Numbered from the stretch's first letter, positions 9,294-29,729 are shown. The stretch is DNA of 33,651 nucleotides from an uncultured Flavobacteriales bacterium (GCA_903873905.1 CAIQQJ010000063.1:1-33651); one strand, 5' to 3'. Numbers and translations: made by a program. The notes: generated from the letters alone by a model not told the origin.

Positions 9294-10499
9294 ATGAAAC
9301 AAGCATTTATCATCGACGGTGTCAGAACAGCAATTGGAAACTTTGGTGGAACATTATCAACTGTTCGCACAGATGATATGGCCGCATTCGTCATTCGTGA
9401 ATTGATGAAAAAGAATCCTTCCATCGATCCGAAAACCATTGGTGATGTTTTATTTGGTTGCGCGAATCAGTCGGGAGAAGATAATCGGAATGTGGCGAGA
9501 ATGGCTATTCTTCTTGCGGGATTGCCTGTGACAGTTCCTGGTGAGACAGTGAATCGTTTGTGTGCATCAGGATTAAGCGCATCGATGTCAGGTGCGCGTG
9601 CCATCATGTGCGGTGATGCTGATTTGATTATTTCCGGTGGTGTAGAAAACATGACACGCGGACCTTGGGTGATTTCAAAAACTTCCACAGCATTCGGAAG
9701 AGATGCTCAAATGTTTGATTCTTCATTCGGGTGGCGCTTCATTAATCCGAAAATGAAAGAAATGTTTGGAACAGAATCCATGGGAGAAACAGCGGAAAAT
9801 CTTTCTGACAGAGATAAAATTTCTCGCGAAGATCAAGATCAATTTTCTTTTCACTCACAACAGAAAGCAGCAAAGGCTCAAGAGCGTGGTCGTTTCAAAA
9901 AAGAAATTGTTGCATATCCCGTTCCACAAAAAAAAGGTGATGCAATAAATTTTGAGAAAGATGAATTCATAAAAGCAACTACAACATTAGAAGGTTTGCA
10001 AAAACTGAAACCATCGTTTAGAAAAGATGGAACTGTAACTGCAGGAAATGCTTCCGGATTAAATGACGGAGCAATTGCATTGTTGCTTTCATCTGAAAAT
10101 GGAATCAAACAAAATAATTTGAAACCCCTTGCGAGAATTGTTTCCATGGGTGTCATTGGAACCGAACCGCGTATTATGGGAATTGGTCCGGTTGAAGCCA
10201 GCAATATCGCATTGAAAAAAGCAGGATTGACTTTCAATGACATTGATTTGATTGAATTGAATGAAGCATTCGCTGCGCAGTCACTCGCATGTCTTCGCTC
10301 ATGGGGAATTGCAGATAATGATCCACGTGTCAATCCAAATGGAGGCGCAATTGCATTGGGACATCCTCTAGGAATGAGTGGCGCGAGAATTTTGCATTCT
10401 GCAGCCATTGAACTGAATGAGCAAAATAAAAAATATGCCTTGGTTACACTTTGCATTGGTGTTGGACAAGGTTATGCTGTGGTGATTGAGAAGTGTTAA
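9294..10499 (+). CDS. paaJ: 3-Oxoadipyl-CoA thiolase PaaJ
   Basis: A 401-aa thiolase, exactly the length expected for 3-oxoadipyl-CoA thiolase. It cleaves 3-oxoadipyl-CoA with CoA to succinyl-CoA and acetyl-CoA, the last step of the phenylacetate pathway, and may also serve the earlier 3-oxo-5,6-didehydrosuberyl-CoA thiolysis. The acyl-binding Cys90 is in NRLCASGLSA; GHPLGMSGAR supplies the histidine and CIGVGQG the second cysteine near the C-terminus. NEAFAAQSLACL completes the thiolase set. The middle FIKATTTLEGLQKLKPSF segment matches this subfamily. It stands 101 bp after the GH31 gene and 365 bp before susC, and may have its own promoter. An alternative as a general acetyl-CoA acetyltransferase cannot be fully excluded, but the paa context makes PaaJ the best call. 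Confidence 0.94.
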   Translation: MKQAFIIDGVRTAIGNFGGTLSTVRTDDMAAFVIRELMKKNPSIDPKTIGDVLFGCANQSGEDNRNVARMAILLAGLPVTVPGETVNRLCASGLSASMSGARAIMCGDADLIISGGVENMTRGPWVISKTSTAFGRDAQMFDSSFGWRFINPKMKEMFGTESMGETAENLSDRDKISREDQDQFSFHSQQKAAKAQERGRFKKEIVAYPVPQKKGDAINFEKDEFIKATTTLEGLQKLKPSFRKDGTVTAGNASGLNDGAIALLLSSENGIKQNNLKPLARIVSMGVIGTEPRIMGIGPVEASNIALKKAGLTFNDIDLIELNEAFAAQSLACLRSWGIADNDPRVNPNGGAIALGHPLGMSGARILHSAAIELNEQNKKYALVTLCIGVGQGYAVVIEKC

Positions 10500-10667
10500 T
10501 AATTATTTTAGAAATTATTTTCAGATAATTTCCTTTCATCCCTCAGCGGTTTATGAGAGAATAGGTTGGTCTGACGTTTTCATTCACTTAGCACAAATAT
10601 TCTCCACTTGGTAGAAATTTGATATAGTTTGTAGAAATAAATTTCCGAGATTTCAAAGAATTATTAC

Positions 10668-10689
10668 ACTTTATTTTTACAAATAAAGT
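10668..10689. repeat. Perfect 9-bp inverted repeat upstream of susC
   Basis: ACTTTATTT (10668-10676) and AAATAAAGT (10681-10689) pair perfectly around a TTAC loop, 47 bp upstream of the TAGTTTTG box. It could be an operator for a regulator of susCD or a weak paaJ terminator; it lies 168 bp after the paaJ stop. Confidence 0.8.
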
Positions 10690-10735
10690 TCATAAAGCGT
10701 TAATAATTAAAATGTTAAGTACAGTTAAAATCTGC

Positions 10736-10743
10736 TAGTTTTG
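10736..10743 (+). promoter_or_regulatory. Putative susC promoter (-7 TAGTTTTG)
   Basis: TAGTTTTG matches the Bacteroidota -7 consensus TAnnTTTG exactly. No convincing TTTG box is found at the usual 19-21 bp upstream. Transcription from here would begin near 10750, giving a leader of about 115 nt. Confidence 0.5.
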
Positions 10744-10759
10744 GCCTGTACAAAATCCA

Positions 10760-10819
10760 ATGAAAAAGAAAACTTTTTCAAAACTGCGATGTACATTTTT
10801 TTTTATTCCGAATGCATAA
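10760..10819 (+). other. Short leader reading frame (19 codons)
   Basis: An ATG at 10760 opens a 19-codon frame, beginning with four codons MKKK and ending in IPNA, whose stop codon overlaps the 5' arm of the following hairpin. It begins about 10 nt after the predicted transcript start. The arrangement resembles a leader peptide of an attenuator, but a frame this short can arise by chance. Confidence 0.3.
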
Positions 10820-10835
10820 TGGATTTGATGCATTC
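10810..10835 (+). promoter_or_regulatory. Hairpin in the susC leader
   Basis: GAATGCAT (10810-10817) and ATGCATTC (10828-10835) form a perfect 8-bp stem with a 10-nt loop, 29 bp before the susC start. A T-rich run (TTAATTTTTT, 10841-10850) follows. It could act as a weak terminator/attenuator or control susC translation. Confidence 0.5.
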
Positions 10836-10864
10836 AAAGTTTAATTTTTTAAACCAATTCACTT

Positions 10865-13800
10865 ATGCACTTAAACAGAATTAGAAATCTGTTTGCATTT
10901 TTTATAATGCTTACAGGAACTTCTTTGTTTGCGCAAAAAACAATTACTGGAAAAATCACTTCCATAAAAGATGGCAGTGTAATTCCAGGCGCAATTGTTA
11001 CGGAAAGCGGAACAAAAAATGGTGTTGCTGCAAATCTTGACGGAATTTATTCCATCACTGTAGCAGATAATGCAAGCGCCTTGATTTTCCGAATGACTGG
11101 ATTGAAAACCGATACGGTTGCAATTAACGGTCGTACCGCAATTGATGAAATCATGAAGGAAGATGTAAAACAACTGAAAGAAGTTGTGGTTACAGCTCTT
11201 GGTGTATCAAAAGAGAAAAAAGCACTTGGTTATTCTGTTTCTACTGTCAGTGGAGAAGATGTATCAAGATCCGGTGAGACCAATGTCATCGAGTCGCTTT
11301 CATCAAAAGCACCTGGTGTTACAGTAACAGGTACAGGAGGAACTCCAGGTGCATCAAGCAAAATCCAGATTCGTGGAAATGCAACATTCACTGGAAACAA
11401 CCAACCACTCATTGTAATTGATGGAGTTCCAGTTGACAACTCCACAACTTCAACCAATGCAGGTGACAATCCTTACAACGCAACACTTGCGGGAGTGAGC
11501 AATTCAAATCGTGCCTTGGATATTAATCCAGACGACATTGAATCCGTTACAATTCTAAAAGGACCTGCTGCTGCTGCACTTTATGGTGCTCGTGCAGGAT
11601 CAGGTGCAATTATTTATACAACAAAAAAAGGTTCTTATGGAAAAGGTCAAGGACTTGGCGTTACTTATTCAACCAATGTTGAATTTGAAAAAGTAAACAA
11701 GCTTCCTGAACTTCAAAAAACCTATGCACAAGGACTTTGGACTGACCCAACTACTTTTTCCAGTTCAGCAATGTATGTCACCGCTGATCCAGGCCCAGAC
11801 CATATTTTTTATACAGCAGATGACATTTCCGATGGCACTTCATCATCATGGGGGCCAAAAATTTCTGATGTCCCAGGTGTAACTTACAATGACAATATGA
11901 AGAACTTCTTCAAAACAGGAATCACCACAAACAATAATTTGGCGATCACTGGTGGAAGTGAAAACACTTTGTATCGTTTCTCTTACGGAAATACAAATCA
12001 AACCGGAATTGTTCCAAATAGTTCACTCAAGAGAAATACATTCTTGGTTTCTGGTGAGCATAAAATTTCCGATAAACTTACAGTGGGATCCGTTGTCAAT
12101 TACGTCAACACACGTGGCGTGAAACCACAAAACGGAAGCAACCTTTCTGGAGTAATGCTTGGTTTGCTTCGTATGCCAGGAAGTTTTGACATGAATCCTT
12201 ATCAATATGATAATTTGAATAACAGAACTTATTTCAGTTTGTATGACAATCCACTTTTCACAGCATATAGGAATCCTTATAATGATGATGTGAATCGTAT
12301 TTATGGAAATACTTATTTGAATTGGAAGCCATGTAGTTTTTTCAGTCTCACCTATCGTTTGGGAACAGATTTCTATAACGACAACCGTCGTCAGATCTAC
12401 GCTGTTTCTTCCAATGGCGATGACAATACAACTGGACTTGGACAAATCAATTTCGAACAAGTTAACAGCATGCAGATTTATTCCGATTTACTTGCAACTG
12501 TTACAAAAGATTTCGGAACTAACTGGCATAGCAGTTTGACTCTTGGAAACAACATCTGGAACAAAAAGATGGACGAGCAATTCTCACGCGGTCGTACTTT
12601 GGGTGTACCAGGATTTTATAATCTTTCCAACGCATCAGAATTGTACACCAGTCAATACCAAGAAGCGATCAGAACCGTCGCGGGTTTCATTGATGGATCA
12701 ATCGATTACAAGAGCGCTATTTTCCTGAATTTGACTGCACGTAATGAATGGTCTTCCACTTTCTCAAAAGGAAAAGATGGATTCCTTTATCCATCTGCAA
12801 GTTTATCCGTTGTGTTGAGTGAATTAATGACACTTCCAAAATGGTTCTCTTTCGCGAAAGTCCGTGCGAATTATGCTGTAGCAGGTATTTCTCCTGAGCC
12901 TTATAGAAACCGCACTTACTATGCTCAATCTACCTTCACTGATGGCTATACCAATGGAAACTCATTTCCGTACCTCGGAACAGTTGGTTATGGAATCAGT
13001 AATACACTTGGAAATCCTGATTTGAAACCAGAGCGCGTAATTGGAAATGAAGTTGGAACAGATCTTCGCTTTTTCAATAATCGCTTGAATTTAGATTTCA
13101 CTTATTACCATCAAAAAACGGTTGACATTCTTGTTGCTCGTCCGGTTGCTCCATCGTCTGGATTCAATTCTGTTTATCAGAATTCTGGACAGATGTTGAA
13201 CCAAGGATTTGAAGTTCAATTAGGTGGTGTTCCAGTGAAAAAAGATAATTTCAATTGGGAGATTTCAGTTAACTGGGCTACCAACCATTCGAAAGTTCTC
13301 AAACTTGCTGAAGGTGTTTCTGAACTCAGTTTGGAAGAAGGTTTCGAATCAATTGGTGCTTACGCAATCGTTGGTCAACCTTACGGCGTTCTTTATGGAA
13401 CACAATACCAACATACCTCTGATGGAAAATTAATCATCAATCCAGCAACCGGTTTGCCATACATTGATCCAAAGAGCACAGCTCTCGGAAACCCAATGCC
13501 AAAATGGACATCTGGAATTCGCAATACACTTACCTACAAATCTTTCACCATGAGTTTCCTTTGGGACATTCGTAATGGTGGAAAAATCTGGAACGGAACA
13601 AAAATGCGTATCGATCGTCTTGGAACTTCAAAAGCTTCTGAGAATCGCGATCAAAATTATACCATTGCTGGCGTTCTTGCTACAGGTGTTGATGCGAATG
13701 GTTATGCTATTGCTGGTGATCAGGCCAATACTGTTGCAGTTGATGGACAAACCTATTTCCAACAATATCGTGGTGACATGGGTGGCGCAACTGAAATGGC

Positions 13801-14050
13801 AATTGAAGATGGATCGTGGGTTCGTTTACGCGATGTTTCCTTGAGTTACCGTTACAAATGCAAGAGCCAAAAATACATCCAGCACATTGACTTTACAATT
13901 ACTGGTCGTAACATGCTCCTCTTCACAAAATATACTGGTGTAGATCCTGAAACAAGTCTTACAGGTGCTGGATCAAATATCAGCGGGTTCGATTATTTCA
14001 ATAACCCTGGCACAAAGTCATTCATGTTTGGAATCAGAGTTGCATTTTAA
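10865..14050 (+). CDS. SusC/RagA-type TonB-dependent outer-membrane transporter
   Basis: A 1061-aa SusC-family TonB-dependent receptor that would import an oligomeric nutrient across the outer membrane using TonB energy. Order of parts: signal peptide (to about SLFAQ), carboxypeptidase-D regulatory-like domain (ITGKITSIKDGSVIPGAIV through the ANLDGIYSI motif), the TonB-box region KEVVVTALGV, a plug domain with NVIESLSSKAPGVTV, LIVIDGVPVDN and ILKGPAAAALYGARAGSGAI, then a 22-strand barrel ending in MFGIRVAF with the terminal aromatic residue. No secretin/STN domain for an anti-sigma partner is seen. The susD-like gene follows 21 bp later. The substrate cannot be told from sequence; GH31 at 6841 is the only nearby glycosidase. 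Confidence 0.96.
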   Translation: MHLNRIRNLFAFFIMLTGTSLFAQKTITGKITSIKDGSVIPGAIVTESGTKNGVAANLDGIYSITVADNASALIFRMTGLKTDTVAINGRTAIDEIMKEDVKQLKEVVVTALGVSKEKKALGYSVSTVSGEDVSRSGETNVIESLSSKAPGVTVTGTGGTPGASSKIQIRGNATFTGNNQPLIVIDGVPVDNSTTSTNAGDNPYNATLAGVSNSNRALDINPDDIESVTILKGPAAAALYGARAGSGAIIYTTKKGSYGKGQGLGVTYSTNVEFEKVNKLPELQKTYAQGLWTDPTTFSSSAMYVTADPGPDHIFYTADDISDGTSSSWGPKISDVPGVTYNDNMKNFFKTGITTNNNLAITGGSENTLYRFSYGNTNQTGIVPNSSLKRNTFLVSGEHKISDKLTVGSVVNYVNTRGVKPQNGSNLSGVMLGLLRMPGSFDMNPYQYDNLNNRTYFSLYDNPLFTAYRNPYNDDVNRIYGNTYLNWKPCSFFSLTYRLGTDFYNDNRRQIYAVSSNGDDNTTGLGQINFEQVNSMQIYSDLLATVTKDFGTNWHSSLTLGNNIWNKKMDEQFSRGRTLGVPGFYNLSNASELYTSQYQEAIRTVAGFIDGSIDYKSAIFLNLTARNEWSSTFSKGKDGFLYPSASLSVVLSELMTLPKWFSFAKVRANYAVAGISPEPYRNRTYYAQSTFTDGYTNGNSFPYLGTVGYGISNTLGNPDLKPERVIGNEVGTDLRFFNNRLNLDFTYYHQKTVDILVARPVAPSSGFNSVYQNSGQMLNQGFEVQLGGVPVKKDNFNWEISVNWATNHSKVLKLAEGVSELSLEEGFESIGAYAIVGQPYGVLYGTQYQHTSDGKLIINPATGLPYIDPKSTALGNPMPKWTSGIRNTLTYKSFTMSFLWDIRNGGKIWNGTKMRIDRLGTSKASENRDQNYTIAGVLATGVDANGYAIAGDQANTVAVDGQTYFQQYRGDMGGATEMAIEDGSWVRLRDVSLSYRYKCKSQKYIQHIDFTITGRNMLLFTKYTGVDPETSLTGAGSNISGFDYFNNPGTKSFMFGIRVAF

Positions 14051-14071
14051 TTAATCCAAAAGAAACTGAAA

Positions 14072-15466
14072 ATGAAAAAATCAATCATATATAAAACAGG
14101 AATTGTTTCCATGATGGTAGCAGTTCTTTCGATCACATCTTGCGAGAAATATCTCGATAAGGTGAGACCGAATCCAAATAATGCGGAGGATGTTTCAATG
14201 GACAACCTTCTTGCCAATGTAGAAGTTGCAACTTTCTGCAATTATTCTGGAAACAATGCGCGACGTGCTGGAATTTTCACCCAACATCTAGCAGGTACAG
14301 ATGGTCAAATGCAAATTGTTGCCGCTTATAACGTAACAGAAAATGATGTTACCAATGAGTGGAAAACAATTTTCTCTTCTGCGTTGATTAACTGTGATAA
14401 ACTGATCACAAAAGCAGGTGATGCAAATCCATATTATCGTGGAATCGCGAAAGTAATCAAAGCGATGAACCTTGGACTTGCAACGGATCAATGGGGTGAC
14501 ATTCCAAATAGCGAAGCCTTGCAAGGCGATGCTGCTACTCCTAATTTCACTCCGCATTATGATGCACAAGCAACAGTTCTAACTGACATACAAAGTTTGT
14601 TGTCGTCTGCAATTGTTGATTTGACACAAGCTCCTATTGGAACATTACCATCAATGAACGATTTCGTTTTTAATGGTGACAATACCAAATGGACAAAAAT
14701 TGCTTGGGTATTAAAAGCGCGTTATGCAAATCATGAAAGCAAACGTAATCCCACACAATCAGCAACAGATGCTCTTTCCTATTTGACTTCAGCAGGAATG
14801 ACAGGAAATGCTGATGATGCTAATTGTATTTTCGGGCCTGCAGGAAATGAAAACAACCAATGGTTTGCTTTCAATCAAACACGTTTCGGATATATTAGAA
14901 TGGGAAAATTCTTCATCGACATGATGAATACCAATTCCGATCCGCGTCTTCCATTCTATGCTACGCTAGATGACACAGGAGCCTACACTGGTTCTGGTGT
15001 AAGTTCAAATGACATCACTACTTCTCAGTTGGGAACTTATTATGGAAGCGCAACTTCAATAGCACCACTTTGTACATATGTGGAAGCGAAATTCATTGAA
15101 GCAGAAGCAAATTTACGCCTTGGAAATACCGTTGATGCTGCAACGGCACATAATGATGCAGTGAAAGCCTCTGTCCTTGCCGTAACAGGTGCAACAAATG
15201 CAACTTATGAATTGGCACACGCTTCCGAAACGGGTGGCTCAATTACACTCCAGAAAATAATGGAAGAAAAATATGTCGCACTGTTTACGCAGGTTGAATC
15301 TTGGTCAGATTGGCGTCGTACAGGTTTCCCTGTTCTTACGCCGAATGCTGCGGCCGCTGTTGCTGGCATTCCACGCAGTCTTCCAACAAGTGTTGACGAA
15401 CGTGTGAATAATCCAAATGCACCAGTGCAGAATAATATACTCAACCACATTTGGTGGGATTTGTAG
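14072..15466 (+). CDS. SusD/RagB-family surface lipoprotein (SusD-like_2 type)
   Basis: A 464-aa SusD-like nutrient-binding lipoprotein that caps the SusC barrel on the cell surface. The lipobox SITSC places the lipidated cysteine at residue 24, followed by EKYLDKVRPNPNNAEDV. The PNN motif and the WWDL C-terminus are typical of the SusD-like_2 subgroup rather than classical starch-binding SusD. Tetratricopeptide-like helical segments (for example the FIEAEANLRLG helix) are visible. It starts 21 bp after susC and is followed by a strong terminator, so the two form a bicistronic operon. No dedicated regulator such as a HTCS, SusR or ECF/anti-sigma pair is present nearby. Confidence 0.94.
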   Translation: MKKSIIYKTGIVSMMVAVLSITSCEKYLDKVRPNPNNAEDVSMDNLLANVEVATFCNYSGNNARRAGIFTQHLAGTDGQMQIVAAYNVTENDVTNEWKTIFSSALINCDKLITKAGDANPYYRGIAKVIKAMNLGLATDQWGDIPNSEALQGDAATPNFTPHYDAQATVLTDIQSLLSSAIVDLTQAPIGTLPSMNDFVFNGDNTKWTKIAWVLKARYANHESKRNPTQSATDALSYLTSAGMTGNADDANCIFGPAGNENNQWFAFNQTRFGYIRMGKFFIDMMNTNSDPRLPFYATLDDTGAYTGSGVSSNDITTSQLGTYYGSATSIAPLCTYVEAKFIEAEANLRLGNTVDAATAHNDAVKASVLAVTGATNATYELAHASETGGSITLQKIMEEKYVALFTQVESWSDWRRTGFPVLTPNAAAAVAGIPRSLPTSVDERVNNPNAPVQNNILNHIWWDL

Positions 15467-18493: not shown

Positions 18494-19084
18494 ATGATAT
18501 ACGAATTCAACGGTTACCGACCTGTCGTTCACAAATCCAGTTTTGTTCATCCGCAAGCTGCGGTTACTGGGAATGTCACCATTGGTGAAAATGTTTATAT
18601 CGGTCCTGGTGCGGCTATTCGAGGAGATTGGGGAGAAATCATTATTGAAGACGGATGTAATGTTCAGGAAAATTGCACCATTCATATGTTTCCGGGAACA
18701 ACTGTTCGCTTGCAAAAGGGCGCGCACATAGGACACGGCGCAATTATTCATGGCGCGACCATTGGTAAAAACTGTCTGGTAGGAATGAATTCTGTTTTAA
18801 TGGATAATGTTGTGCTTGGCGATGAATGTATTGTTGGCGCATTGACATTAATAACTGCCGAAACGATTATTCCCAATAGAAAAATTGTTGTGGGCAATCC
18901 CGGAAAAATTGTGAAAGATGTCAGCGATAAAATGCTTGAATGGAAAACAAAAGGAACTGAATTATACCAACAGTTGCCAAAAGAATGTCACAACACCCTG
19001 AAACAATGTGAACCAGACAGACACGAGCAGCCCTTTAAACCTGAACAGCAGAATGTTTATAAAACATGGAGTAAGGAGAAATAA
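18494..19084 (+). CDS. paaY: PaaY-like thioesterase, gamma-carbonic anhydrase fold
   Basis: A 196-aa left-handed beta-helix protein with hexapeptide repeats and metal-site histidines at His64, His81 and His86 (in CTIHM and HIGHGAIIHG). The N-terminal RPVVHKSSFVHPQA and the C-terminal segment (EWKTKGTELYQQLPKECHNTLKQCEP) match PaaY of the phenylacetate cluster rather than generic carbonic anhydrases, which end sooner. PaaY acts as a thioesterase that removes the toxic CoA intermediate when the pathway overruns. It lies 8 kb from paaJ on the same strand, directly after recQ (67-bp gap), so it is separated from the rest of the paa cluster here. Confidence 0.88.
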   Translation: MIYEFNGYRPVVHKSSFVHPQAAVTGNVTIGENVYIGPGAAIRGDWGEIIIEDGCNVQENCTIHMFPGTTVRLQKGAHIGHGAIIHGATIGKNCLVGMNSVLMDNVVLGDECIVGALTLITAETIIPNRKIVVGNPGKIVKDVSDKMLEWKTKGTELYQQLPKECHNTLKQCEPDRHEQPFKPEQQNVYKTWSKEK

Positions 19085-19142: not shown

Positions 19143-19173
19143 ATTGGCAATCCTCCTCTAAAGACTATATTTG
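19143..19173 (+). promoter_or_regulatory. Putative promoter of the DUF2304/deacetylase operon
   Basis: ATTG at 19143-19146, a 19-bp spacer and TATATTTG at 19166-19173 fit the Bacteroidota consensus (TTG, 19-21 bp, TAnnTTTG) well. The transcript start would be about 19180, a few bases before the DUF2304 ATG at 19189, giving a very short leader. Confidence 0.65.
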
Positions 19174-19188: not shown

Positions 19189-19536
19189 ATGGCTCGAGTT
19201 CAAATAATAGCAATTGTAGCAACCCTACTTTTTATCGCGTTCATTGCTCGATTGATCATACGTGGAAAATTGCGTGAAGAATACGCCATCATCTGGATTG
19301 TTTGTTCTGTAATTCTCATCGCATTTTCTTTTTGGCGTGATGGCCTTGATGTGATGTCGAGATTAATTGGCATTGCATCACCACCAAATCTTGTTTTTAC
19401 TGGAGCAATTTTTTCAATTCTTATTTATCTTTTGCATTTATCAGTTGTTGTTTCAAAACTGCAGGAACAAAACAAGACACTCGCACAGGAAATCGCGATA
19501 TTAAAGCAAAAACAGAGTGGCAAAAATGTTGAATGA
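19189..19536 (+). CDS. DUF2304 membrane protein
   Basis: A 115-aa protein with three predicted membrane segments (roughly residues 3-25, 33-50 and 66-86) followed by a charged coiled-coil tail (KLQEQNKTLAQEIAILKQKQ). The layout matches the DUF2304 family, small membrane proteins frequently found beside glycosyltransferases and glycan-modifying enzymes in cell-envelope polysaccharide clusters; the exact function is unknown. The last 11 bp overlap the start of the downstream deacetylase, indicating translational coupling. A well-placed promoter lies just upstream. The coiled coil could recruit the next protein to the membrane (inference). Confidence 0.85.
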   Translation: MARVQIIAIVATLLFIAFIARLIIRGKLREEYAIIWIVCSVILIAFSFWRDGLDVMSRLIGIASPPNLVFTGAIFSILIYLLHLSVVVSKLQEQNKTLAQEIAILKQKQSGKNVE

Positions 19537-20374
19537 AAATATTTTTTTATTCAGTGTTGACCTTGAAGATATTCGTCTTCGCATGGACGATGGTCTTAAA
19601 TACAACGCATCAGTTGAAAGATTAGTCGGCAACTACCTCGAGTTTCTAAACAAGTTCAAATCAAAAGCAACTTTTTTTGTAGTGGGTGATATTCCAAAAT
19701 ATTATCCCGACTTAATAAAAACGCTTGTCAAAGAAGGACATGAAATTGCTTGTCACTCCAACTTACATTTACCCGTTGAAAAACAAACTGCAAAAGAATT
19801 CAAAGAGGATCTATTGAGAAATATTGAAAGTCTCACGAATGCAGGAGCCAATCAAATAGTTGGTTATAGAGCACCATTTTATTCCATAACGCCTAAAACG
19901 CCATGGGCATTTGAAGTGCTTGCGGAAACCGGATTTAAATATTCCAGCTCTGTTCTTCCATCGAAAAATCCCATTTATGGATGGCCGAATTTTGGTGAGA
20001 AGCCAAGAAAAATGAAAGAAGGCATTTGGGAAATACCAATTAGCTTGTCTGCAAATTTTATGTTAACCGTTCCTTTTGCTGGCGGCGTTTATTTTCGAGT
20101 ATTGCCAAAAGCCATTATCAATTGGAACTTCAAAAAACAATTTGGCAACAACAACGCAGTTGCAGGATACTTCCATCCGTACGACATCGATGTAGACCAG
20201 GAACCATACATGCATCCTGGTATTGACGAAAGTTGGTTTTACAATAAACTTTTATATCACAATCGTTCCAAAGTGTTTTCGCGACTCGATTCAATTATGG
20301 AACGTTTCCAACCAAAAATAATTACCTATAAAAATTACTTTGAAGAATTAAATTCACAAGATGCAAAAAGGTAA
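19526..20374 (+). CDS. Polysaccharide deacetylase (NodB-type)
   Basis: A 282-aa NodB-homology deacetylase, starting at the ATG at 19526 inside the end of the DUF2304 frame (11-bp overlap); a GTG at 19517 is an alternative. Metal-site motifs: Asp12/Asp15 in VDLED, His77 and His81 in ACHSNLH, catalytic RAPFYS (115-120), and a YFHPYDID motif near residue 218. The C-terminal part resembles the deacetylases of exopolysaccharide (XrtA/PEP-CTERM-type) clusters. It would remove N- or O-acetyl groups from a surface or lipid-linked glycan. No signal peptide is visible, so it is either cytoplasmic or tethered to the preceding membrane protein (inference). Confidence 0.9.
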   Translation: MLNENIFLFSVDLEDIRLRMDDGLKYNASVERLVGNYLEFLNKFKSKATFFVVGDIPKYYPDLIKTLVKEGHEIACHSNLHLPVEKQTAKEFKEDLLRNIESLTNAGANQIVGYRAPFYSITPKTPWAFEVLAETGFKYSSSVLPSKNPIYGWPNFGEKPRKMKEGIWEIPISLSANFMLTVPFAGGVYFRVLPKAIINWNFKKQFGNNNAVAGYFHPYDIDVDQEPYMHPGIDESWFYNKLLYHNRSKVFSRLDSIMERFQPKIITYKNYFEELNSQDAKR

Positions 20375-20774
20375 TTCCATATATGCAGAAGAAGCTGAAC
20401 GCATTGCTGATTATTTAATCGGTGTTGCACCAGGAGAGCGTGAATTGAATATTTATTCAGAGGCGATGCAAATCCTGAATATTCAGTTTACAAAATATGA
20501 ACAGGAATTGTGGAAGAGCATGCTCAAAAGCAAATGGCGAATGGCTTGTATTGATGGAGGTCTTGCATTGAAAGAACCCAACAACAATGCAAGAAGAAAA
20601 CTTTTTTGCATGCTAAGCATTTTGGAAACGTCTCCAGCATACATAGATTATTTTCTTTCAAAGAGTTTTTCCTCATTTTATTTTTTCAAACTTATGTGGA
20701 CTGCAACAAGAGCGGTATGCAGAGGCTTGACTGGTTTATTTTTAATAAAACTGATCAAAATAAAATGCAAGTAG
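20361..20774 (+). CDS. Unrecognised 137-aa protein between deacetylase and oxidoreductase
   Basis: The ATG at 20361 overlaps the end of the deacetylase by 14 bp, and its stop overlaps the start of the oxidoreductase by 10 bp. The first 60 residues look like a helical soluble domain, and residues 96-136 are rich in Phe, Leu and aromatic residues and basic at the end (LFLIKLIKIKCK), suggesting membrane association. No motif or family is recognised; a small partner subunit of the oxidoreductase, like the auxiliary subunits of GMC-type membrane dehydrogenases, is possible by position only. Both overlaps make it likely to be truly translated. Confidence 0.7.
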   Translation: MQKGNSIYAEEAERIADYLIGVAPGERELNIYSEAMQILNIQFTKYEQELWKSMLKSKWRMACIDGGLALKEPNNNARRKLFCMLSILETSPAYIDYFLSKSFSSFYFFKLMWTATRAVCRGLTGLFLIKLIKIKCK

Positions 20775-22381
20775 ACTTCGATTATATTGTTGTTGGATCA
20801 GGAGCAACTGGAGCTATTGCTGCCAGAACGCTTGTGGAAGCTGGTTGCAAGGTTGCTGTATTGGATGCAGGAGTTGAAGATGAACAATATAAATCCATTA
20901 TTCCAAATAAAGATTTCATCAGCATTAGAAAGGAAGATCAACAACAACACACTTATTTTTTAGGAAATAAATTCGAAGGAATTCCTTGGCAAACAACAAA
21001 AGTGGGTTCTCAACTTACACCTCCCCGAAATTTTCTAACCGAACTCACCGAAAAATTAATTCCATTTGAATCGGAAACTTTTAAGCCAATGGAAAGTCTT
21101 GCAAAAGGCGGACTTGGTGGTGGATGGGGTTGCGGCTGCTATTTATTTTCAAAACCAGAGTTGGATGCAATCGGATTGGATGAATCGGTAATGCGTAAAT
21201 CCTATGAGGCCGTTGCAGAACATATCGGAATTTCAGGTGCAAAAGATGACGGCGCACCATATTGCTTAGGTGAACTTCAAAATATTTTACCGCCACCCAA
21301 ACTCGAAAATAATTTAAAAAACATTTTCGATGCCTATGCAAAAAAGAAAAACAAACTAAACAAAAAAGGTGTTTATGTTGGTAGGTCAGCCTTGGCTTTA
21401 TTAACAGAGAATAAAAATGATAGAAGCGCAGTAAAATACAAAGACATGGATTTCTGGAGCGACAAGGATAAATCTGCCTATCGCTCCTGGATGACCATTG
21501 ATGAATTGAAAAATAAATCAAATTTCACTTATCATAAAAATTGCCTTGTTTTAAAATTCAAAGAAACTGAATCCGGAATTGAAGTTTATGTAAAGCGAAT
21601 TGACACGAATGAGGAAAAAATATTTACGTGTAAAAAACTAATTCTTTCTCCAGGTGTTTTAGGAACTGCTCGTATTGTTATTCGTTCATTTGATTATGTA
21701 CAGGAGCAACTTCCTGTGATTTGCAATCCATATAGCTACATTCCTTGTCTACAATGGAAAATGCTTGGGAAAGAAACCGAGCAATACAAAACCAGCTTCA
21801 GCCAATTGGTAATGTACATTGATGAAAACAAAAGCAATTATGATGTTGCAATGGCTGCATTATTCAGTTACAGATCGTTATTGCTTTTCAAATTGATAAA
21901 GGAATCTCCACTGAACTTTGCGGATGGACGTATTCTCATGCAATATTTGCAATCTTCTTTTACCATTGCAGGAATACATCATCCTGAAAAACCTGGACCA
22001 TCAAAATTTATTCGAATGAAAAAAGATGTCCACAGTTTTACAAATGACATTTTAACTGGACAATATATTCTTTCGGATCAAGAAGAGGAAATAAATAAAC
22101 AAAGAGAAAATAAAATAAAGTCGACGCTTCGCACACTTGGATGCTTTCCTTTGAAAACCATTCATACGCCACACGGAGGAAGCATTCATTATGCAGGAAC
22201 ACTTCCATTTGACAAGAGTAACAAACCATTTACGCTTTTACCCAATGGGAAATTGGCAGGAACACAAAATGTTTTTGTGGCAGACGGTTCAGGATTTAAA
22301 TATTTGCCAGCTAAAGGATTAACTTTAACCTTAATGGCCAACGCACATTTTGTTGCAAATAATGCAATGATAAATGAGTAA
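20765..22381 (+). CDS. GMC-family-like FAD oxidoreductase
   Basis: A 538-aa FAD-dependent oxidoreductase with a start at 20765, inside the end of the previous gene; a longer frame from 20606 would prepend a stretch that lies within the preceding gene. Residues 6-20 give DYIVVGSGATGAIAA, the FAD-binding GxGxxG. The C-terminal portion (HGGSIHYAGTLPF then VADGSGFKYLPAKGLTLTLMANAHFVA) has the GMC-type catalytic histidine and flavin-capping pattern. GGLGGGWGCGC in the first third is also typical. The substrate is probably an alcohol or sugar hydroxyl, but which one is unknown; its neighbours suggest a glycan or polyol. No signal peptide or lipobox is seen. Confidence 0.85.
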   Translation: MQVDFDYIVVGSGATGAIAARTLVEAGCKVAVLDAGVEDEQYKSIIPNKDFISIRKEDQQQHTYFLGNKFEGIPWQTTKVGSQLTPPRNFLTELTEKLIPFESETFKPMESLAKGGLGGGWGCGCYLFSKPELDAIGLDESVMRKSYEAVAEHIGISGAKDDGAPYCLGELQNILPPPKLENNLKNIFDAYAKKKNKLNKKGVYVGRSALALLTENKNDRSAVKYKDMDFWSDKDKSAYRSWMTIDELKNKSNFTYHKNCLVLKFKETESGIEVYVKRIDTNEEKIFTCKKLILSPGVLGTARIVIRSFDYVQEQLPVICNPYSYIPCLQWKMLGKETEQYKTSFSQLVMYIDENKSNYDVAMAALFSYRSLLLFKLIKESPLNFADGRILMQYLQSSFTIAGIHHPEKPGPSKFIRMKKDVHSFTNDILTGQYILSDQEEEINKQRENKIKSTLRTLGCFPLKTIHTPHGGSIHYAGTLPFDKSNKPFTLLPNGKLAGTQNVFVADGSGFKYLPAKGLTLTLMANAHFVANNAMINE

Positions 22382-22474
22382 TCGATTTCGAATGTCTTCT
22401 TAGAATGACCTTAGAAATAAAATCAGAATTTGAAATTCACAATTCGTTATACCACAAAATAATTTCCATAAAAA

Positions 22475-23314
22475 ATGGAGTACGAATTCTCACCAGTTAA
22501 TACCGATAGTAATTCATTGAAAGAAATTGCAACCCTATTAAGGGTAGCTTTTCCCAAATCAACGCAATTCAATGAGAAATTCCTCGAATGGGAATACCGA
22601 GATAATCCGGATGGGAAAATTGTTGGGTACAATGCATACTACAACGGCTTGTTAGTTGCGCACTATGTTTTACAACCAATGTCTGCAAACATCAATGGCA
22701 AAACTGAAAAGGGATTACTTTCATTAAATACAGCCACGCATCCTTTGCATCAAGGGAAAAAACTTTTTACAAGATTGGCTGAGAAGAGTTATGATTTAGC
22801 TAAAAGTAAAGCCTATACTTTTGTCGTTGGTGTTGCGAATGCAAATAGTACACATGGCTTCATAAATAAACTGGGTTTTCAACTGGTCGGAAAACTACAT
22901 GCTAAAATTGGTATGGGAAATATTTCCAGAATCAAAAATATTCAAACTGAATATGAAAGAATATGGAATGACACCAATTTGAAATGGAGGATTTCCAATC
23001 CTGAAAACGTTTATAAAATAAAAAATAATTTTATTATGGCTTCGGCTCATATGATGGGAATTGAAGCAATATTAATTGAATTTGAAAAAGCGAATACACT
23101 TCTGCAATCGCAAAAATCTTTCAATCCACAACCTTTAAAACTTTGGATTGGAATTGATCACAGTGTAGACTGGAAAAAATCATTCTACTTTGATATTCCA
23201 AATAAGTTAAGACCTTCTCCTCTAAATTTTATTTTCAAGGATTTGACAAATGCCAAACGTAAATTAAATTACGAGTCCGTCAAATTCAGCGCAATTGATT
23301 TTGACGCTTATTGA
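22475..23314 (+). CDS. GNAT-like acetyltransferase
   Basis: A 279-aa protein whose first 150 residues look like a GNAT acetyltransferase: LSLNTATHPLHQGKKLFTRLAE fits motif A (QGKKL at the acetyl-CoA loop), and a following NANSTHGFINKLGFQLVG fits motif B. The C-terminal 120 residues are unrecognised. It starts 93 bp after the oxidoreductase on the same strand and ends before the convergent metal operon. Together with the deacetylase it suggests acetyl groups are both removed and added on the same molecule (inference). The acetyl acceptor is unknown. The rare combination of deacetylase, oxidoreductase and acetyltransferase is noted in the findings. Confidence 0.75.
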   Translation: MEYEFSPVNTDSNSLKEIATLLRVAFPKSTQFNEKFLEWEYRDNPDGKIVGYNAYYNGLLVAHYVLQPMSANINGKTEKGLLSLNTATHPLHQGKKLFTRLAEKSYDLAKSKAYTFVVGVANANSTHGFINKLGFQLVGKLHAKIGMGNISRIKNIQTEYERIWNDTNLKWRISNPENVYKIKNNFIMASAHMMGIEAILIEFEKANTLLQSQKSFNPQPLKLWIGIDHSVDWKKSFYFDIPNKLRPSPLNFIFKDLTNAKRKLNYESVKFSAIDFDAY

Positions 23315-24158: not shown

Positions 24159-27100
24159 TCATATACCGAGTTCAGAATGTTTTCTCTTATATGCGCGTTC
24201 AAAAATAATTGGCAATACCAACAGTGTCAGAATTGTTGCACTCACCAATCCTCCTATGATTACAATGGCAAGAGGCTTTTGAGTTTCAGAACCTATTCCC
24301 GTCGAAATTGCAGCAGGCAATAAACCAATCGCAGCCATCATTGCAGTCATCACAACTGGACGCACACGAGATGCAACACCTTTTATTATGGCATCATTTA
24401 AACTCATCTTGTCTGCTAAATTTTTCTTGAAAACTGAAATCAAGATTACTCCATTCTGAACACAGACACCAAAGAGTGCAATGAATCCTATTCCAGCAGA
24501 AATTCCGAAAATCGTATTCGTAATCAGCAATGCGAAGATTCCTCCGATCAGTGAGAATGGAACAGTTACAATTACAATTACGGCATCCTTGATATTTGAA
24601 AATGCAATAAAAAGAATAAGGAAAATAATGACAAGACTGATTGGCACCACTTGTCCTAAGCGTTTGGTGGCACGCACTTGGTTCTCATACTCACCTGCCC
24701 ATTCCAAATGATATCCTTCTGGAAGTGTAGGCTTGATGATTTTATCAATGGAATCTTGCGCTTCCTTTATTGCACCACCCATATCACGATCACGAATGGT
24801 AAACTTCACTCCTCCGAATCGCGTATTGTTATCGCGACTGATTCTGATATCTCCAGATTTTAATTTAATATCAGCAATTGCTTTGAGAGGAACTTTATTT
24901 CCATTAATAGTTGGCACCAAAAGATTTCCGATTTCCACCTCATCCGATCTGTATTCAGGTTTATATCGTACACGAATATCAAATCGTTTATCATCATCAT
25001 ACAATTGGGTAGCGGCTTTTCCTCCAATCGCCATTTCAATTACAGCCTGACAATCTCCAGTGCTAACACCGTAGGCTTTCATTCTTGCCTGATTCATCGA
25101 AATAATCAATTCAGGTTGACCAATTGTTTTTAATAAACCCAAATCATCAATTCCTCGAACCCGCGCCATCACAGGAATTATTTTTTTCCCAATCGAATCA
25201 ATCACATTGAGATCAGGTCCATAAACTTTCACGGCGATATCTGCATTCATTCCGGCAACCGCTTCGTGAACATTATCAATAATCGGTTGAGAATAATTAA
25301 AAATTACACCGGGAATCTGACTGAGTTTTGCATCCATCTGATCAATCAAATCATCAGAAGAAATTTGTTCTTTCCATTCTTCCTTTGGTTTCAAATTCAC
25401 TTGACATTGAATGCTGTAAAAACCATCAGGATCTGTTCCATCAGCAGGACGACCCGTTTGTGACATGACACCGTCCACTTCAGGAAACTGCATGAGGATT
25501 TTGCGCATCTTGTCCGCAATTTTTCTTGACTCCGTAATATTTACACTTAACGGAAGACAAGATTCAACCCACAAAGCGCCTTCATTCAGATCAGGTAAAA
25601 ATTCTGTTCCAAGAAAGCGGAAACTGAAAATGCTTATTCCAAGAATTGAAAATGCAAGTACAAGACTTATTGTTTTTCTCTTGAAAGCAACATTGAACAT
25701 TCCCAGAAACATTTTTGAAATAAAAGCTGTGAATGGATTTTTTTTCTCATGCACATTCTTCTTCAACAAAATGCTTGACATCACGGGTACGAGTGTGAGT
25801 GTAAAAATCAGTGCGCCGATAAGCGCGAAGCCAAGCGTGAAAGCGAGTGGTGAAAACATTTTCCCTTCCACTTTCTGAAAAGAAAAAATTGGAATGAGTG
25901 CTGTGAGAATAATAATTTTTGAAAACAAAATTGCTTTTCCCATTTCCGCACCAGTGTTTTTTATCAAACCTAGTTTAGAAAGTTTATTAAAAACAGCCAT
26001 CCCCCTTTCTTGGGCCTTGTGGTCTAATGCCACAAACACGCCTTCTACCATTACAACAGCCCCGTCAATAATGATTCCGAAGTCGATTGCACCCATAGAA
26101 AGGAGGTTGGCTGTCATGCCCATCATTCGTAAACAAATGAAGGCGAATAACAATGCCATTGGAACGATCATGGCCACAGTAACAGTTGTTCTCCAGTCGG
26201 CCATGAACAGAAGAACTACAAGCGTAACAAGAATAATTCCTTCAAATAAATTATGTAAAACGGTGTGTGTACAAAATCCAATTAATTTATCGCGATCGTA
26301 AAAGGGAACAATTTTTACATCGGAAGGAAGTATTCCAGAATTGAGTGCAGCGATTTTCAATTTCAAATTTTTCAGAAATTCACCAGGATTTTCACCCTTG
26401 CGCATGATCACCACGCCTTCCACTACATCACTCTGATTATTCAGCGCAACAGAACCCAATCGTGGCAACGAAGACTCCACAACTGTCGCAACATTTTTTA
26501 CAAGTATAGGAGTGCCGTTATTATTCTTGACAATAATATTTTGGATGTCACCAATATTCGTCAGCAATCCTAATCCACGAACAACATATGCTTGTTCATT
26601 CTTCTCGATAATATCTCCACCAACATTAATATTGCTTTTCCCCACCGCATCATAAACATCAAACGGACTGAGATCATACTTGGTAAGTAAATGCGGGTCC
26701 ACTTGAATTTCATAGGTCTTCACATCGCCACCAAATGTTACAATATCAGCAACACCAGGAACTTGTCGCAGATTTCTATCGATCACCCAATTTTGAATCG
26801 TAGTAAGTTCACGAACATCTTTCTTCGGACTCTGAACAGTGTAACGGAAAACCTCACCTGTTGGTCCACCTGGAGGAAGGACATCTGGTTCAATTCCATC
26901 AGGAAGTTCAACACCGTGAATTAAATTATTTACTTGTTGTCGCGCGAAGGCATCATCAATTCCATCATCAAAAATGATAATGACATCGGAGAGACCATAC
27001 ATTGAAATGGAACGGACAATTGTTTTTTTCTGAACGGAATTCATGGCAATTTCCATTGGGATCGTAACGAACTTTTCTATTTCGGTACAACTTCTTCCAG

Positions 27101-27269
27101 GCCAAAGCGTGATGATTTCAATTTGCGTATTGGTGACATCAGGAAATGCCTCCACAGGTGTATTTAAATAACTGATCACACCAATGATCGCAGTAAGTCC
27201 TGTCATTAACAAGACAAACAATTTATTCTTTAAGGAAAAGGCGATAATGCCTTTCATGAAATTATTCAT
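24159..27269 (-). CDS. czcA: Heavy-metal efflux RND transporter CzcA/CusA-type
   Basis: A 1036-aa inner-membrane resistance-nodulation-division proton antiporter, the pump of a tripartite metal efflux system. The N-terminus has the usual first helix and porter segment (NTPVEAFPDVTNTQIEI, then WPGRSCTEIEKFVTIPME). In TM4, DFGIIIDGAVVMVEG (residues 396-410) carries the D-F-G-x3-D-G-A signature typical of the divalent-metal (Zn/Co/Cd) HME groups rather than the Cu/Ag group; the usual following EN is EG here. Downstream helices include NIKDAVIVIVTVPFSL and the C-terminal LVSATILTLLVLPIIFERAY. It lies 18 bp after the adaptor gene. The metal is therefore most likely Zn, Co or Cd (inference). Confidence 0.93.
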   Translation of the reverse strand: MNNFMKGIIAFSLKNKLFVLLMTGLTAIIGVISYLNTPVEAFPDVTNTQIEIITLWPGRSCTEIEKFVTIPMEIAMNSVQKKTIVRSISMYGLSDVIIIFDDGIDDAFARQQVNNLIHGVELPDGIEPDVLPPGGPTGEVFRYTVQSPKKDVRELTTIQNWVIDRNLRQVPGVADIVTFGGDVKTYEIQVDPHLLTKYDLSPFDVYDAVGKSNINVGGDIIEKNEQAYVVRGLGLLTNIGDIQNIIVKNNNGTPILVKNVATVVESSLPRLGSVALNNQSDVVEGVVIMRKGENPGEFLKNLKLKIAALNSGILPSDVKIVPFYDRDKLIGFCTHTVLHNLFEGIILVTLVVLLFMADWRTTVTVAMIVPMALLFAFICLRMMGMTANLLSMGAIDFGIIIDGAVVMVEGVFVALDHKAQERGMAVFNKLSKLGLIKNTGAEMGKAILFSKIIILTALIPIFSFQKVEGKMFSPLAFTLGFALIGALIFTLTLVPVMSSILLKKNVHEKKNPFTAFISKMFLGMFNVAFKRKTISLVLAFSILGISIFSFRFLGTEFLPDLNEGALWVESCLPLSVNITESRKIADKMRKILMQFPEVDGVMSQTGRPADGTDPDGFYSIQCQVNLKPKEEWKEQISSDDLIDQMDAKLSQIPGVIFNYSQPIIDNVHEAVAGMNADIAVKVYGPDLNVIDSIGKKIIPVMARVRGIDDLGLLKTIGQPELIISMNQARMKAYGVSTGDCQAVIEMAIGGKAATQLYDDDKRFDIRVRYKPEYRSDEVEIGNLLVPTINGNKVPLKAIADIKLKSGDIRISRDNNTRFGGVKFTIRDRDMGGAIKEAQDSIDKIIKPTLPEGYHLEWAGEYENQVRATKRLGQVVPISLVIIFLILFIAFSNIKDAVIVIVTVPFSLIGGIFALLITNTIFGISAGIGFIALFGVCVQNGVILISVFKKNLADKMSLNDAIIKGVASRVRPVVMTAMMAAIGLLPAAISTGIGSETQKPLAIVIIGGLVSATILTLLVLPIIFERAYKRKHSELGI

Positions 27270-27287
27270 AATGCGTTACCTCCCTAA

Positions 27288-28385
27288 TTAAAAATTATTG
27301 CTTTCCACTAAAAGACTTCCCTCAGTAACAAGAATTTCTCCCTGTTCAATTCCCCTTTTGATATAGGTGTTTTTGCCAAGAACTGGGCCGAGCACTACTT
27401 CCCTCTTTTCAAAATTTGTTTTGTCTTTCCGAACCATTACGAAAAACTTATTGTTGTCGAACAAAACGGAAGAGGACGGAATTGAAATTGATTTTGTAGG
27501 ATGACCAATGTGAACTTTCACAACTGCAAACATTTCAGGTTTCAACAATCCATCGGTATTATCCATCACAATTCTAACTTTTAATGTTTTGGTTTCCGGA
27601 TCGAGAAGATTGCCAACTTGTCCGATTGTTCCTTTGAATATTTTTCCTTCGTAAGCAAGTGTTGAAACTTCAACTTCATCACCCAATGTTATTTTAGCAA
27701 TATCACTTTCATAAACATCTGCCAGCACCCATACAGTATTCAGTGCCGAGACTGTAAAAATATTTGTGCCATTGTCAGATCTAATTTCCATTTCCTCATT
27801 TACATTTTTTTCAACGACATATCCTTCCATCGGTGAATACACATTATACATACCATCAGAATTTTGTGTGTTGGAACCATAAACAGAAAGTGCTTGCTGC
27901 AAACGGTTTACTTCCGACTGTGAGCGTGAATACTCATTTCGCACCGAGAGCAATTGTGTTTCTGAATTCACATTGGTTTTAAAAAGTTCTTCCGCTATAT
28001 CCAAATTCTTTTTTGCTATTGCCTCATTATTTTGTGCAACAGAATACTGACTTTGCAAATCACTGATTTCTGTGCTTCTGATAATGGCGAGCAATTGTCC
28101 TTTATGAACGTAATCACCGAGAGCCACAGTAACCTTGATTACATTACCACCAACAAGAGGGAAAACTTTTCCAACTTTACTTTCGTCGAAAGAAATTTTA
28201 CCTGTAAGGGAAAGGTCTTCTTCTTCCGCTACAAGTCGCGCTGTATCCAAACTGATGTTTTTCAATTGTTCTTCCGAGAGCGAAACTGAATTTGTATTTT
28301 GTTTTGCAGCAGGAACAACCTCTGCCTTTTCAGAACAAGAAAGAAGAAAAACAGGAATCAATGGAATTAAATAAATCGTTTTCAT
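27288..28385 (-). CDS. czcB: RND efflux periplasmic adaptor (membrane fusion protein), CzcB-like
   Basis: A 365-aa lipoprotein adaptor linking pump and outer-membrane factor. The lipobox FLLSC places the lipid at Cys17. The pattern GKISFDESKVGKVFPLVGGNV followed by KVTVALGDYVHKGQLLAIIRSTEISDLQSQY gives the first half of the lipoyl/barrel-sandwich domain; a coiled-coil hairpin follows, then NVNEEMEIRSDNGTNIFTVSALNTVWVLADVYESDIAKI completes the sandwich and beta-barrel. The C-terminal GIEQGEILVTEGSLLVESN is the membrane-proximal region. It lies 12 bp after czcC and 18 bp before czcA, in an evident operon. Confidence 0.93.
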   Translation of the reverse strand: MKTIYLIPLIPVFLLSCSEKAEVVPAAKQNTNSVSLSEEQLKNISLDTARLVAEEEDLSLTGKISFDESKVGKVFPLVGGNVIKVTVALGDYVHKGQLLAIIRSTEISDLQSQYSVAQNNEAIAKKNLDIAEELFKTNVNSETQLLSVRNEYSRSQSEVNRLQQALSVYGSNTQNSDGMYNVYSPMEGYVVEKNVNEEMEIRSDNGTNIFTVSALNTVWVLADVYESDIAKITLGDEVEVSTLAYEGKIFKGTIGQVGNLLDPETKTLKVRIVMDNTDGLLKPEMFAVVKVHIGHPTKSISIPSSSVLFDNNKFFVMVRKDKTNFEKREVVLGPVLGKNTYIKRGIEQGEILVTEGSLLVESNNF

Positions 28386-28397
28386 TGTAGAGGGTTT

Positions 28398-29729
28398 TTA
28401 TTTTATTATTTGAATACCTGTAACATAATTGAGTTGTTGCGCCGCTCTGAAATAATCGGAGTCCAGCGCAATTATTCCGCGCCGAGCATCTTCGTACGTT
28501 CGAAGTTGATCAAGAAATTCAATAAGACTTATTCGGCGATGACTATAATTGTCAATGATATTTGTAAAAAGTAAATCGATGTCTTCGGAATAGCTTCCTT
28601 TTTTATCCGTACCATTTCCGCTGATCACACCTGGCTGTATATTCACACTGTCGCGTACTTCGCGAATTCTCAAAAACTGTCCATACGCCGAAACAACTTC
28701 CGATTGTGCATTTTGTTGCTGAAGCGTATCATCAAATTGCGATTGTGTCAATGCAAATTTCGCCGCTCGGATATTTCCTTGGTTGCGGTTAAAAATTGGA
28801 ATATCAATTCCTGCATTCACAGTCCATAAATTATTTACATAACTGCTTCGTCGATCATATTCTGTTCCCACTATCAAATCGGGTGCGCCTTGCGATTTTT
28901 GTAATTTCAAATTCTGTGCATTCCAATTCACATTGGTGGATGCGAGTTGAACATCGGGACGTTTTCCTGAAGCAATAATCAATGTATCAAGAATTGGAAC
29001 ATAGCCATTGGGCATTGGAATTTTTTCAATTTTCAACCAAGAATTTTGTCTGAAGCCAAGTAGCACTCGTAATTGTGCTTCCATCGTTTCAATAAAATTC
29101 AGATTGGCAAGTCGATCAGTAATGGTTGATTGCCTTTCCGCTTTTAAACGAATCACATCATTGCCAGCAGTTGCGCCCAATTTTAATTCCTGCTGTGCTG
29201 CGGAAATAACCTGATCAAGTGCTGCTAATTCAGAATCATATACTTCATCGATTTGTTGCGCTTCATATAAATCAGCAAGATCATTATACATTTCAAATTT
29301 GAGAGCAAGCGAAAGATCATCGAATGATAACTGATTTCTCTTCACATCAATTTCTGCAAGTCGTACAGCATTAATGTGCCGACCTGCAATGGATAACATT
29401 TGGCTAACCTGAACATCAACTTGTCCTGATGATGGATTATTATCAAGCCATGTTCCAGAGGTAGGATCATAAAGTGATTGCAAATAAACAATGTTCGGAT
29501 TATACCAAGCGCGTGCCTGCGTAACTTCTGATTTCGCTATATCCACATTATAGCGTGCAGATAAAAGCATTAGGCATTTCCCGACAAGGCGTTGCTCCGC
29601 TGTATTTACATTTAGTAAAAGAGTGTCAGCAGGAAAATCGGCATTCGTATTTGCTTTGGCTGTTGAAGTAAGCCCGAAAAAAATTACAGGCAGGAACAAC
29701 AAAACCTTCAGCGGATGAAGAGGATTCAT
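28398..29729 (-). CDS. czcC: TolC-family outer-membrane efflux protein, CzcC-like
   Basis: A 443-aa outer-membrane factor with a signal peptide (to about STAKA) and TolC-type long coiled-coil helices, including the repeat with SEVTQARAWYNPNIVYLQSLYDP in the first half and VNAGIDIPIFNRNQGNIRAAKFALTQSQ in the second half. These two PxF/PIFNRNQGNI-type elements are typical of CzcC/NodT-like factors. It forms the outer-membrane exit of the system with the downstream adaptor and pump. A 51-bp gap separates it from the preceding small acidic protein, and it is 12 bp upstream of czcB. Confidence 0.92.
   Translation of the reverse strand: MNPLHPLKVLLFLPVIFFGLTSTAKANTNADFPADTLLLNVNTAEQRLVGKCLMLLSARYNVDIAKSEVTQARAWYNPNIVYLQSLYDPTSGTWLDNNPSSGQVDVQVSQMLSIAGRHINAVRLAEIDVKRNQLSFDDLSLALKFEMYNDLADLYEAQQIDEVYDSELAALDQVISAAQQELKLGATAGNDVIRLKAERQSTITDRLANLNFIETMEAQLRVLLGFRQNSWLKIEKIPMPNGYVPILDTLIIASGKRPDVQLASTNVNWNAQNLKLQKSQGAPDLIVGTEYDRRSSYVNNLWTVNAGIDIPIFNRNQGNIRAAKFALTQSQFDDTLQQQNAQSEVVSAYGQFLRIREVRDSVNIQPGVISGNGTDKKGSYSEDIDLLFTNIIDNYSHRRISLIEFLDQLRTYEDARRGIIALDSDYFRAAQQLNYVTGIQIIK

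Follow-up and report, generated by a model that had tools for sequence, protein, structure and literature searches.

Do the five closely packed genes at positions 19,189 to 23,314 of the window studied here (33,651 nucleotides of an uncultured Flavobacteriales bacterium, GCA_903873905.1, CAIQQJ010000063.1:1-33651) form one unit, and on what does such a unit act? They encode a small DUF2304 membrane protein, a NodB-type deacetylase, a protein of 137 amino acids (hereafter p137), an oxidoreductase of the GMC superfamily and a GNAT acyltransferase. The set is a real, conserved unit, and apparently a widespread, undescribed module inside a known kind of pathway; a search of open-access papers for this gene combination, including in Bacteroidota, returned no matching system. 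Concerning its role, we lean slightly towards the reading that the five genes edit a sugar donor in the cytoplasm, as one part of a pathway for extracytoplasmic glycosylation.

A scan of genome contigs for relatives with the single sequence gave no match; an alignment-based scan gave 69 named loci distributed over about ten phyla, 68 of them with a clustered GMC frame. These numbers include short or near-duplicate loci and thus count loci, not independent events, and neighbouring genes were counted only inside the stretch available around each locus. The p137 gene lies directly upstream of the GMC gene in 51 of the 68 loci, overlapping it in 40, and because this overlapping order recurs across phyla, the arrangement in the window is beyond chance. 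Directly downstream of the GMC gene, 50 of the 68 loci carry a gene of the SDR family (overlapping in 38). The order NodB, p137, GMC is found in 11 loci, the window included, and the order GMC, SDR, GNAT in 11 named relatives. Further recurring neighbours are GT2 glycosyltransferases (40 of the 68 loci), DUF2304 (26), a membrane protein with TPR repeats (24), GNAT (16), NodB (11) and a methyltransferase (10); RecQ and KdsD, which adjoin many clusters, were judged to be lineage neighbourhood and not parts of the set. The initial annotation of the window had proposed that the five genes form one unit and had named, beforehand, a lack of conserved gene order in relatives as an observation that would overturn this; the order is conserved even in distant genera, and the recurrence of the set across phyla bears the proposal out.

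The SDR gene is nearly as constant as the GMC gene itself. It was counted within the available stretch of 58 loci before the seemingly SDR-less loci were checked more closely; with this check, 65 of the 69 named loci have an SDR gene behind the GMC gene, in fusion with it or in its vicinity. In L093, L098, L101 and L109 it forms the C-terminal part of the GMC frame, such that a loss of SDR in these four loci is rejected, and in L100, L123 and L129 it stands directly downstream and had been missed by clustering. Among the named loci with a complete GMC gene, only L111 and L114 have no SDR nearby, while L115 and L131 are cut off.

The loci include Bacteroidota, Acidobacteriota, Gemmatimonadota, Saccharibacteria, Chloroflexota, Krumholzibacteriota, Myxococcota, Planctomycetota and Sumerlaeota, as well as a Bdellovibrionales record; most come from metagenome-assembled genomes (MAGs), and single odd taxon placements are to be taken with caution. 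The order-level searches took in 12 genomes. True relatives of the GMC-like protein (about 40-75% identity) were present in 12 of the 39 relatives searched, the own genome counted, in which the protein is single-copy. A sample of 395 genomes of the phylum gave only ordinary, distant GMC paralogues (best 1.8e-9) and no evidence of orthologues, so that the subfamily is considered rare.

Concerning donor synthesis, the cluster GT2 of a relative matches dolichol-phosphate-mannose synthase, ArnC and GtrB in a comparison with PDB; in the GT2, D41, D45, D90 and D92 are conserved. Of 30 GT2s with a length near 240 residues and no membrane helices at the C-terminus, 28 occur together with DUF2304, whereas the 20 longer GT2s with two such helices never do; these sequences are related to each other, and the statistical significance of the comparison is nominal. 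DUF2304 is typical of GacJ, the helper of the undecaprenyl-phosphate (Und-P)-GlcNAc transferase GacI (PMC8327497). The pattern of GT2 and DUF2304 is as expected for a GacI/GacJ-like polyprenyl-phosphate-sugar synthase, in which DUF2304, if the donor-editing reading is true, would be the detached membrane domain of its partner GT2. The set thus resembles GacI/GacJ (and EpaI/EpaJ, WpsA/WpsB), where a pair of GT2 and DUF2304 supplies a membrane transferase with a polyprenyl-phosphate sugar (PMC8327497), whereas it adds p137, GMC, SDR, NodB and GNAT and occurs mostly in Bacteroidota. The earlier statement that no glycosyltransferase belongs to the set does not hold: the clusters of relatives carry the GT2, and the own genome has it on another contig.

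The recurring TPR protein is probably a TMTC-like GT-C transferase, an assignment made by motifs rather than by structure. Its motifs FDD, YRP, RxD, KE, DW and HR stand in the expected order and correspond to M1-M5 and, less exactly (HR instead of ER), to M7 of the human TMTC1-4, for which the motifs are listed in PMC7801869; motif 6 is approximate only. Both have a multi-pass N-terminal domain with DD, YRP, RxD, KE and DW motifs followed by C-terminal TPRs, whereas the present protein is bacterial and differs in motif 7. The TMTC/DUF1736 Pfam domain was not among the matches up to E 10 for the N-terminal region of the copy in L071, and a profile of the protein compared with PDB matched TPR repeats only and gave no information on the GT-C half. 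Near the core of L103, L121, L132 and L135, a carbamoyltransferase gene lies beside this TPR GT-C gene, which suggests varied sugar decoration.

The redox part consists of the GMC-like protein, p137 and the SDR. Pfam matches of the window GMC protein to the GMC and FAD (flavin adenine dinucleotide) domains are sub-threshold only; its AlphaFold2 (AF2) model, with a predicted local distance difference test score (pLDDT) of 92.6, finds in Foldseek as best matches fructose dehydrogenase (FDH), FAD-glucose dehydrogenase (FAD-GDH), C-glycoside oxidase and pyranose 2-oxidase (E 4.8e-28 to 9jqa_A and 5.4e-28 to 6a2u_B), and the fold of the FAD-GDH/FDH catalytic subunit is present. Its H475 aligns with the histidine of cellobiose dehydrogenase which we take to be catalytic. 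In the SDR, the glycine motif and the Ser/YxxxK site (Ser107/108, Tyr119, Lys123) are conserved. GMC and SDR are considered to act as a pair, because they are fused in some relatives and because, as described below, the own genome has kept its resident SDR beside a foreign GMC. DprE1 has a VAO fold; the window protein has the GMC fold according to Foldseek and no VAO-type Pfam domain. DprE1/DprE2, an FAD oxidase with an SDR for which inversion of a hydroxyl on a polyprenyl-phosphate sugar is proposed (PMC11127046), is alike in pairing an FAD enzyme with an SDR whose active site is intact, the SDR not being adjacent in the window itself; unlike DprE1/DprE2, the present set has the additional p137 and exists in fused versions, and an epimerisation by it is suggested by analogy.

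Instead of an epimer, the GMC protein and the SDR could give a new functional group (e.g., keto, deoxy or uronic) within the same donor pathway. The non-canonical catalytic pair of the GMC protein would fit this, as would the carbamoyltransferase and the methyltransferase of some loci, which suggest varied products. We nevertheless regard it as rather unlikely, since the SDR stands next to GMC or is fused with it in almost all loci, which favours an oxidation-reduction pair working on one substrate, and since an SDR is still found in the own genome despite the replacement of its GMC.

Editing of a lipid-linked donor also has to be weighed against the view of the initial annotation that the five enzymes modify, step by step, an envelope glycan or glycolipid already completed elsewhere, a view for which the coupling of deacetylase, oxidoreductase and acyltransferase in one unit speaks. 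NodB itself keeps the metal-binding histidine pair of CE4 enzymes (H77, H81, R115 and H217 are invariant in 14 sequences) and, in favour of the same view, resembles the deacetylase of XrtA exopolysaccharide clusters, scoring 183 bits against TIGR03006 (XrtA/PEP-CTERM polysaccharide deacetylase), below the cut-off of 276. A hydrophobicity check found no strongly hydrophobic, signal-like segment in NodB, GMC or GNAT, and a GNAT enzyme requires cytosolic acyl-CoA; the window enzymes thus look cytoplasmic and donor-directed. Furthermore, the presence of DUF2304 and of the recurring GT2 suggests a monosaccharide donor linked to a lipid, and neither polymerases nor exporters are recurrent in the loci. 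Because of the type of DUF2304, the acyl-CoA need of GNAT and the missing signal-like segments, a lipid-linked donor is the likelier substrate and action on a finished glycan is unlikely: of the stepwise deacetylation, oxidation and acetylation originally suggested, the stepwise modification of one sugar is still the natural reading, whereas the finished glycan as its target is probably wrong.

Deacylation at the level of the donor has parallels. ArnD and NaxD deacylate an Und-P amino sugar before its transfer, ArnD being NodB-like and NaxD not; unlike these, the present NodB carries DUF3473. In Mycobacterium tuberculosis, polyprenyl-phosphate-GalNAc is made by PpgS with the helper Rv3632, deacetylated by an unidentified factor and then transferred (PMC9671496). 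The present set would share with this pathway a polyprenyl-phosphate amino sugar with a helper protein and the subsequent deacetylation and transfer, whereas it has a deacetylase candidate within the operon and, in addition, a redox pair and an acyltransferase.

The protein p137, for which neither Pfam nor NCBIfam gives a match, is all-helical in its AF2 model (mean pLDDT 93.6) and ends in a helix of 32 residues that is hydrophobic in most members and moderately so in the window copy; it has no fold match in PDB. It is a probable partner subunit of the GMC protein or a membrane adaptor. That p137 corresponds to the gamma subunit (PF13618) of FAD dehydrogenases is unsupported, since it has no such match in Pfam or PDB and PF13618 is absent from 25 relatives.

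This bears on a further reading, in which GMC and p137 are a catabolic or respiratory membrane sugar dehydrogenase like those for glucose or fructose and their neighbours are incidental. The best fold matches are to just these enzymes, and the set resembles the FAD fructose and glucose dehydrogenases, C-glycoside oxidase and pyranose 2-oxidase in having the GMC fold and, next to the gene of the catalytic protein, that of a small protein comparable in size to the dehydrogenase small subunits. In contrast to them, the GMC protein (11-16% identity) has an altered catalytic position, the set holds no cytochrome subunit, and p137 is not homologous to the small subunits by the sequence and fold tests run against PDB. 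With PF13618 also without a match in the 25 relatives, and with GT2, DUF2304 and the TMTC-like GT-C recurring in the loci whereas sugar transporters and kinases do not, a respiratory dehydrogenase is improbable.

The window carries a fragment of the set, which the own genome has in full but split, with the SDR, the GT2 and the TPR protein together with the methyltransferase on three other contigs. The window contains no SDR, only 93 bp separating GMC from GNAT at the SDR position of relatives. The own SDR is on contig C51 (32% identical to that of L044), the GT2 on C116 (67% identical to the cluster GT2 of a relative), and the TPR protein on C81 (L151:4907-8084; 62% identity). On C81 the TPR gene is convergent with the methyltransferase gene and adjoins TatC, an arrangement shared by L044 and L070, and the methyltransferase has its best match (80% identity) in L108, a cluster of the clade to which the foreign GMC belongs. 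In the trees, the window GMC clusters with L044, L070 and Aquimarina (support 100/100) and not with its own genus. The C51 SDR, in contrast, is placed with the own genus (quick tree, local support 97-99), and it stands in the same context as in that genus, yet the GMC gene normally beside it is absent there. The simplest reading of these sequence relationships is that the resident GMC gave way to a foreign GMC set, whereas the SDR of the genome was retained. That the window genes are non-working leftovers of a transferred operon, as the lack of SDR and GT2 in the window and the GMC foreign to the genus clade might suggest, is highly improbable given five intact frames, the GT2, SDR, GT-C and methyltransferase elsewhere in the genome and the absence of a second GMC copy, which a functional replacement predicts.

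From the gene content and conserved order, the fusions, the family assignments with their catalytic motifs and the split set, we infer the chemical steps of donor editing, their order, the sugar and the acceptor. DUF2304 would anchor the GT2 (C116), which would make a polyprenyl-phosphate-linked sugar, probably an N-acetylhexosamine. GMC and p137 would then oxidise a ring hydroxyl of the lipid-linked sugar to a ketone, which the SDR (C51) would reduce, with a net epimerisation following the logic of DprE1/DprE2. NodB would take off the N-acetyl group, and GNAT and the methyltransferase (C81) would attach other groups. After flipping, the TMTC-like GT-C (C81) would attach the sugar to a secreted protein, in which Thr residues of collagen-like G-X-T repeats are a possible site. 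Three-component systems are the precedent for the remaining steps, and DprE1/DprE2 for the redox epimerisation on the lipid carrier (PMC11127046). If true, a redox-editing module would have been added to glycosylation by lipid-linked sugars, as a second solution with an FAD enzyme and an SDR beside the drug target pair DprE1/DprE2, and a role would be assigned to the unnamed p137 family and the unnamed GMC subfamily; furthermore, the human TMTC transferases would have a bacterial relative, and environmental bacteria a possible route to glycosylated collagen-like proteins.

With regard to the acceptor, genes for collagen-like proteins are neighbours of the cluster in several lineages, among them Aquimarina, Sediminibacterium, Lacihabitans and a Flavobacterium MAG. 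On the own contig C116 (L066:9203-11575), a collagen-like gene and a gene with a type IX secretion system (T9SS) tail lie directly upstream of the GT2 in one direction, with RecQ divergent beside them; the collagen match is just below the Pfam cut-off. PF01391 occurs in 24 of 32 named GMC-positive genomes. Among Bacteroidota it is found in 18 of 20 GMC-positive genomes versus 24 of 147 in the phylum sample (Fisher 8e-11; 5e-8 with Aquimarina counted once), and at least four matches are found in 11 of 12 GMC-positive versus 12 of 27 other near relatives (p 0.006), tests which ignore shared ancestry and sampling and include many MAGs. The specific proposal of a dedicated O-glycosylation of collagen-like G-X-T proteins, comprising a GMC/SDR epimerisation independent of DprE1/DprE2, decoration and a bacterial TMTC-type attachment, is doubtful and put forward tentatively. 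Collagen is at most one of the acceptors.

Several observations weigh against the preferred reading. Many loci have no linked GT2, and p137 was undetected in the four loci with fused GMC and SDR. Since only a minority of loci carry them, NodB and GNAT are an optional decoration. No recurring flippase-like cluster was noticed among the loci, in which no family-based flippase search was made. The second GMC catalytic position is Gly518, beside a nearly invariant Lys517, such that the reaction could be unusual; furthermore, no homology of p137 to the subunits of known dehydrogenases was seen. The own genome is a MAG of 181 contigs with the parts on separate ones, so that their assignment to one genome carries a residual chance of binning error. 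Finally, the co-occurrence with collagen may reflect lineage or sampling, and two Saccharibacteria with the core, one of them a complete genome, have no PF01391, which is why collagen is not the sole acceptor.

Table. Features of the gene set in the window, and GMC-SDR fusions in relatives (positions preceded by the locus)
Feature	Position	Strand	Basis
Candidate promoter TTGGCA-16-TATATT, then TATATTTG	19144..19173	+	motif match, 10/12 positions
DUF2304 small membrane protein, GacJ-like partner candidate	19189..19536	+	PF10066 1.2e-27; three hydrophobic segments
NodB/CE4-type de-N-acetylase with DUF3473	19526..20374	+	Polysacc_deac_1 (PF01522) 8.6e-19; DUF3473 2.3e-23
p137, 137 aa, small, all-helical	20361..20774	+	AF2 model; no Pfam/NCBIfam match
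GMC-superfamily FAD sugar oxidoreductase, unnamed subfamily	20765..22381	+	AF2 and Foldseek; orthologues
Gap of 93 bp, site of the SDR gene in most relatives, SDR absent here	22382..22474	+	
GNAT acyltransferase	22475..23314	+	PF13527 1.1e-9
GMC-SDR fusions, one frame of ~843 residues, then GNAT	L093:7980-10508; L098:2665-5196; L101:7980-10511; L109:7980-10511		

The five frames of the window are intact and co-directional (Table); DUF2304 and NodB overlap by 11 bp, NodB and p137 by 14 bp, and p137 and GMC by 10 bp, in exact agreement with the frames, overlaps and gap of the initial annotation. Matches in Pfam and NCBIfam back the assignment of DUF2304, NodB and GNAT. The promoter described there as good is indeed well placed for the set from DUF2304 to GNAT, and its second box, continuing as TATATTTG, fits the Bacteroidota TAnnTTTG element; such sites are, however, no commoner in the window than in shuffled sequence (21 observed versus 16.9 +/- 3.8). 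Bacteroidota promoter patterns of fixed spacing were uninformative for the window, the spacings used partly not matching the site at 19144.

Between a RecQ gene of 610 amino acids and DUF2304, a PaaY-like hexapeptide protein is encoded (18494-19084, +), which is not conserved with the cluster in relatives. Convergent with the cluster is an RND efflux operon with an outer membrane factor (24159-29729, -), CusA/CzcA-like by eye. Further upstream, a GH31 glycosidase, a thiolase and a SusC-like/SusD-like pair are encoded at 6841-15466 (+).

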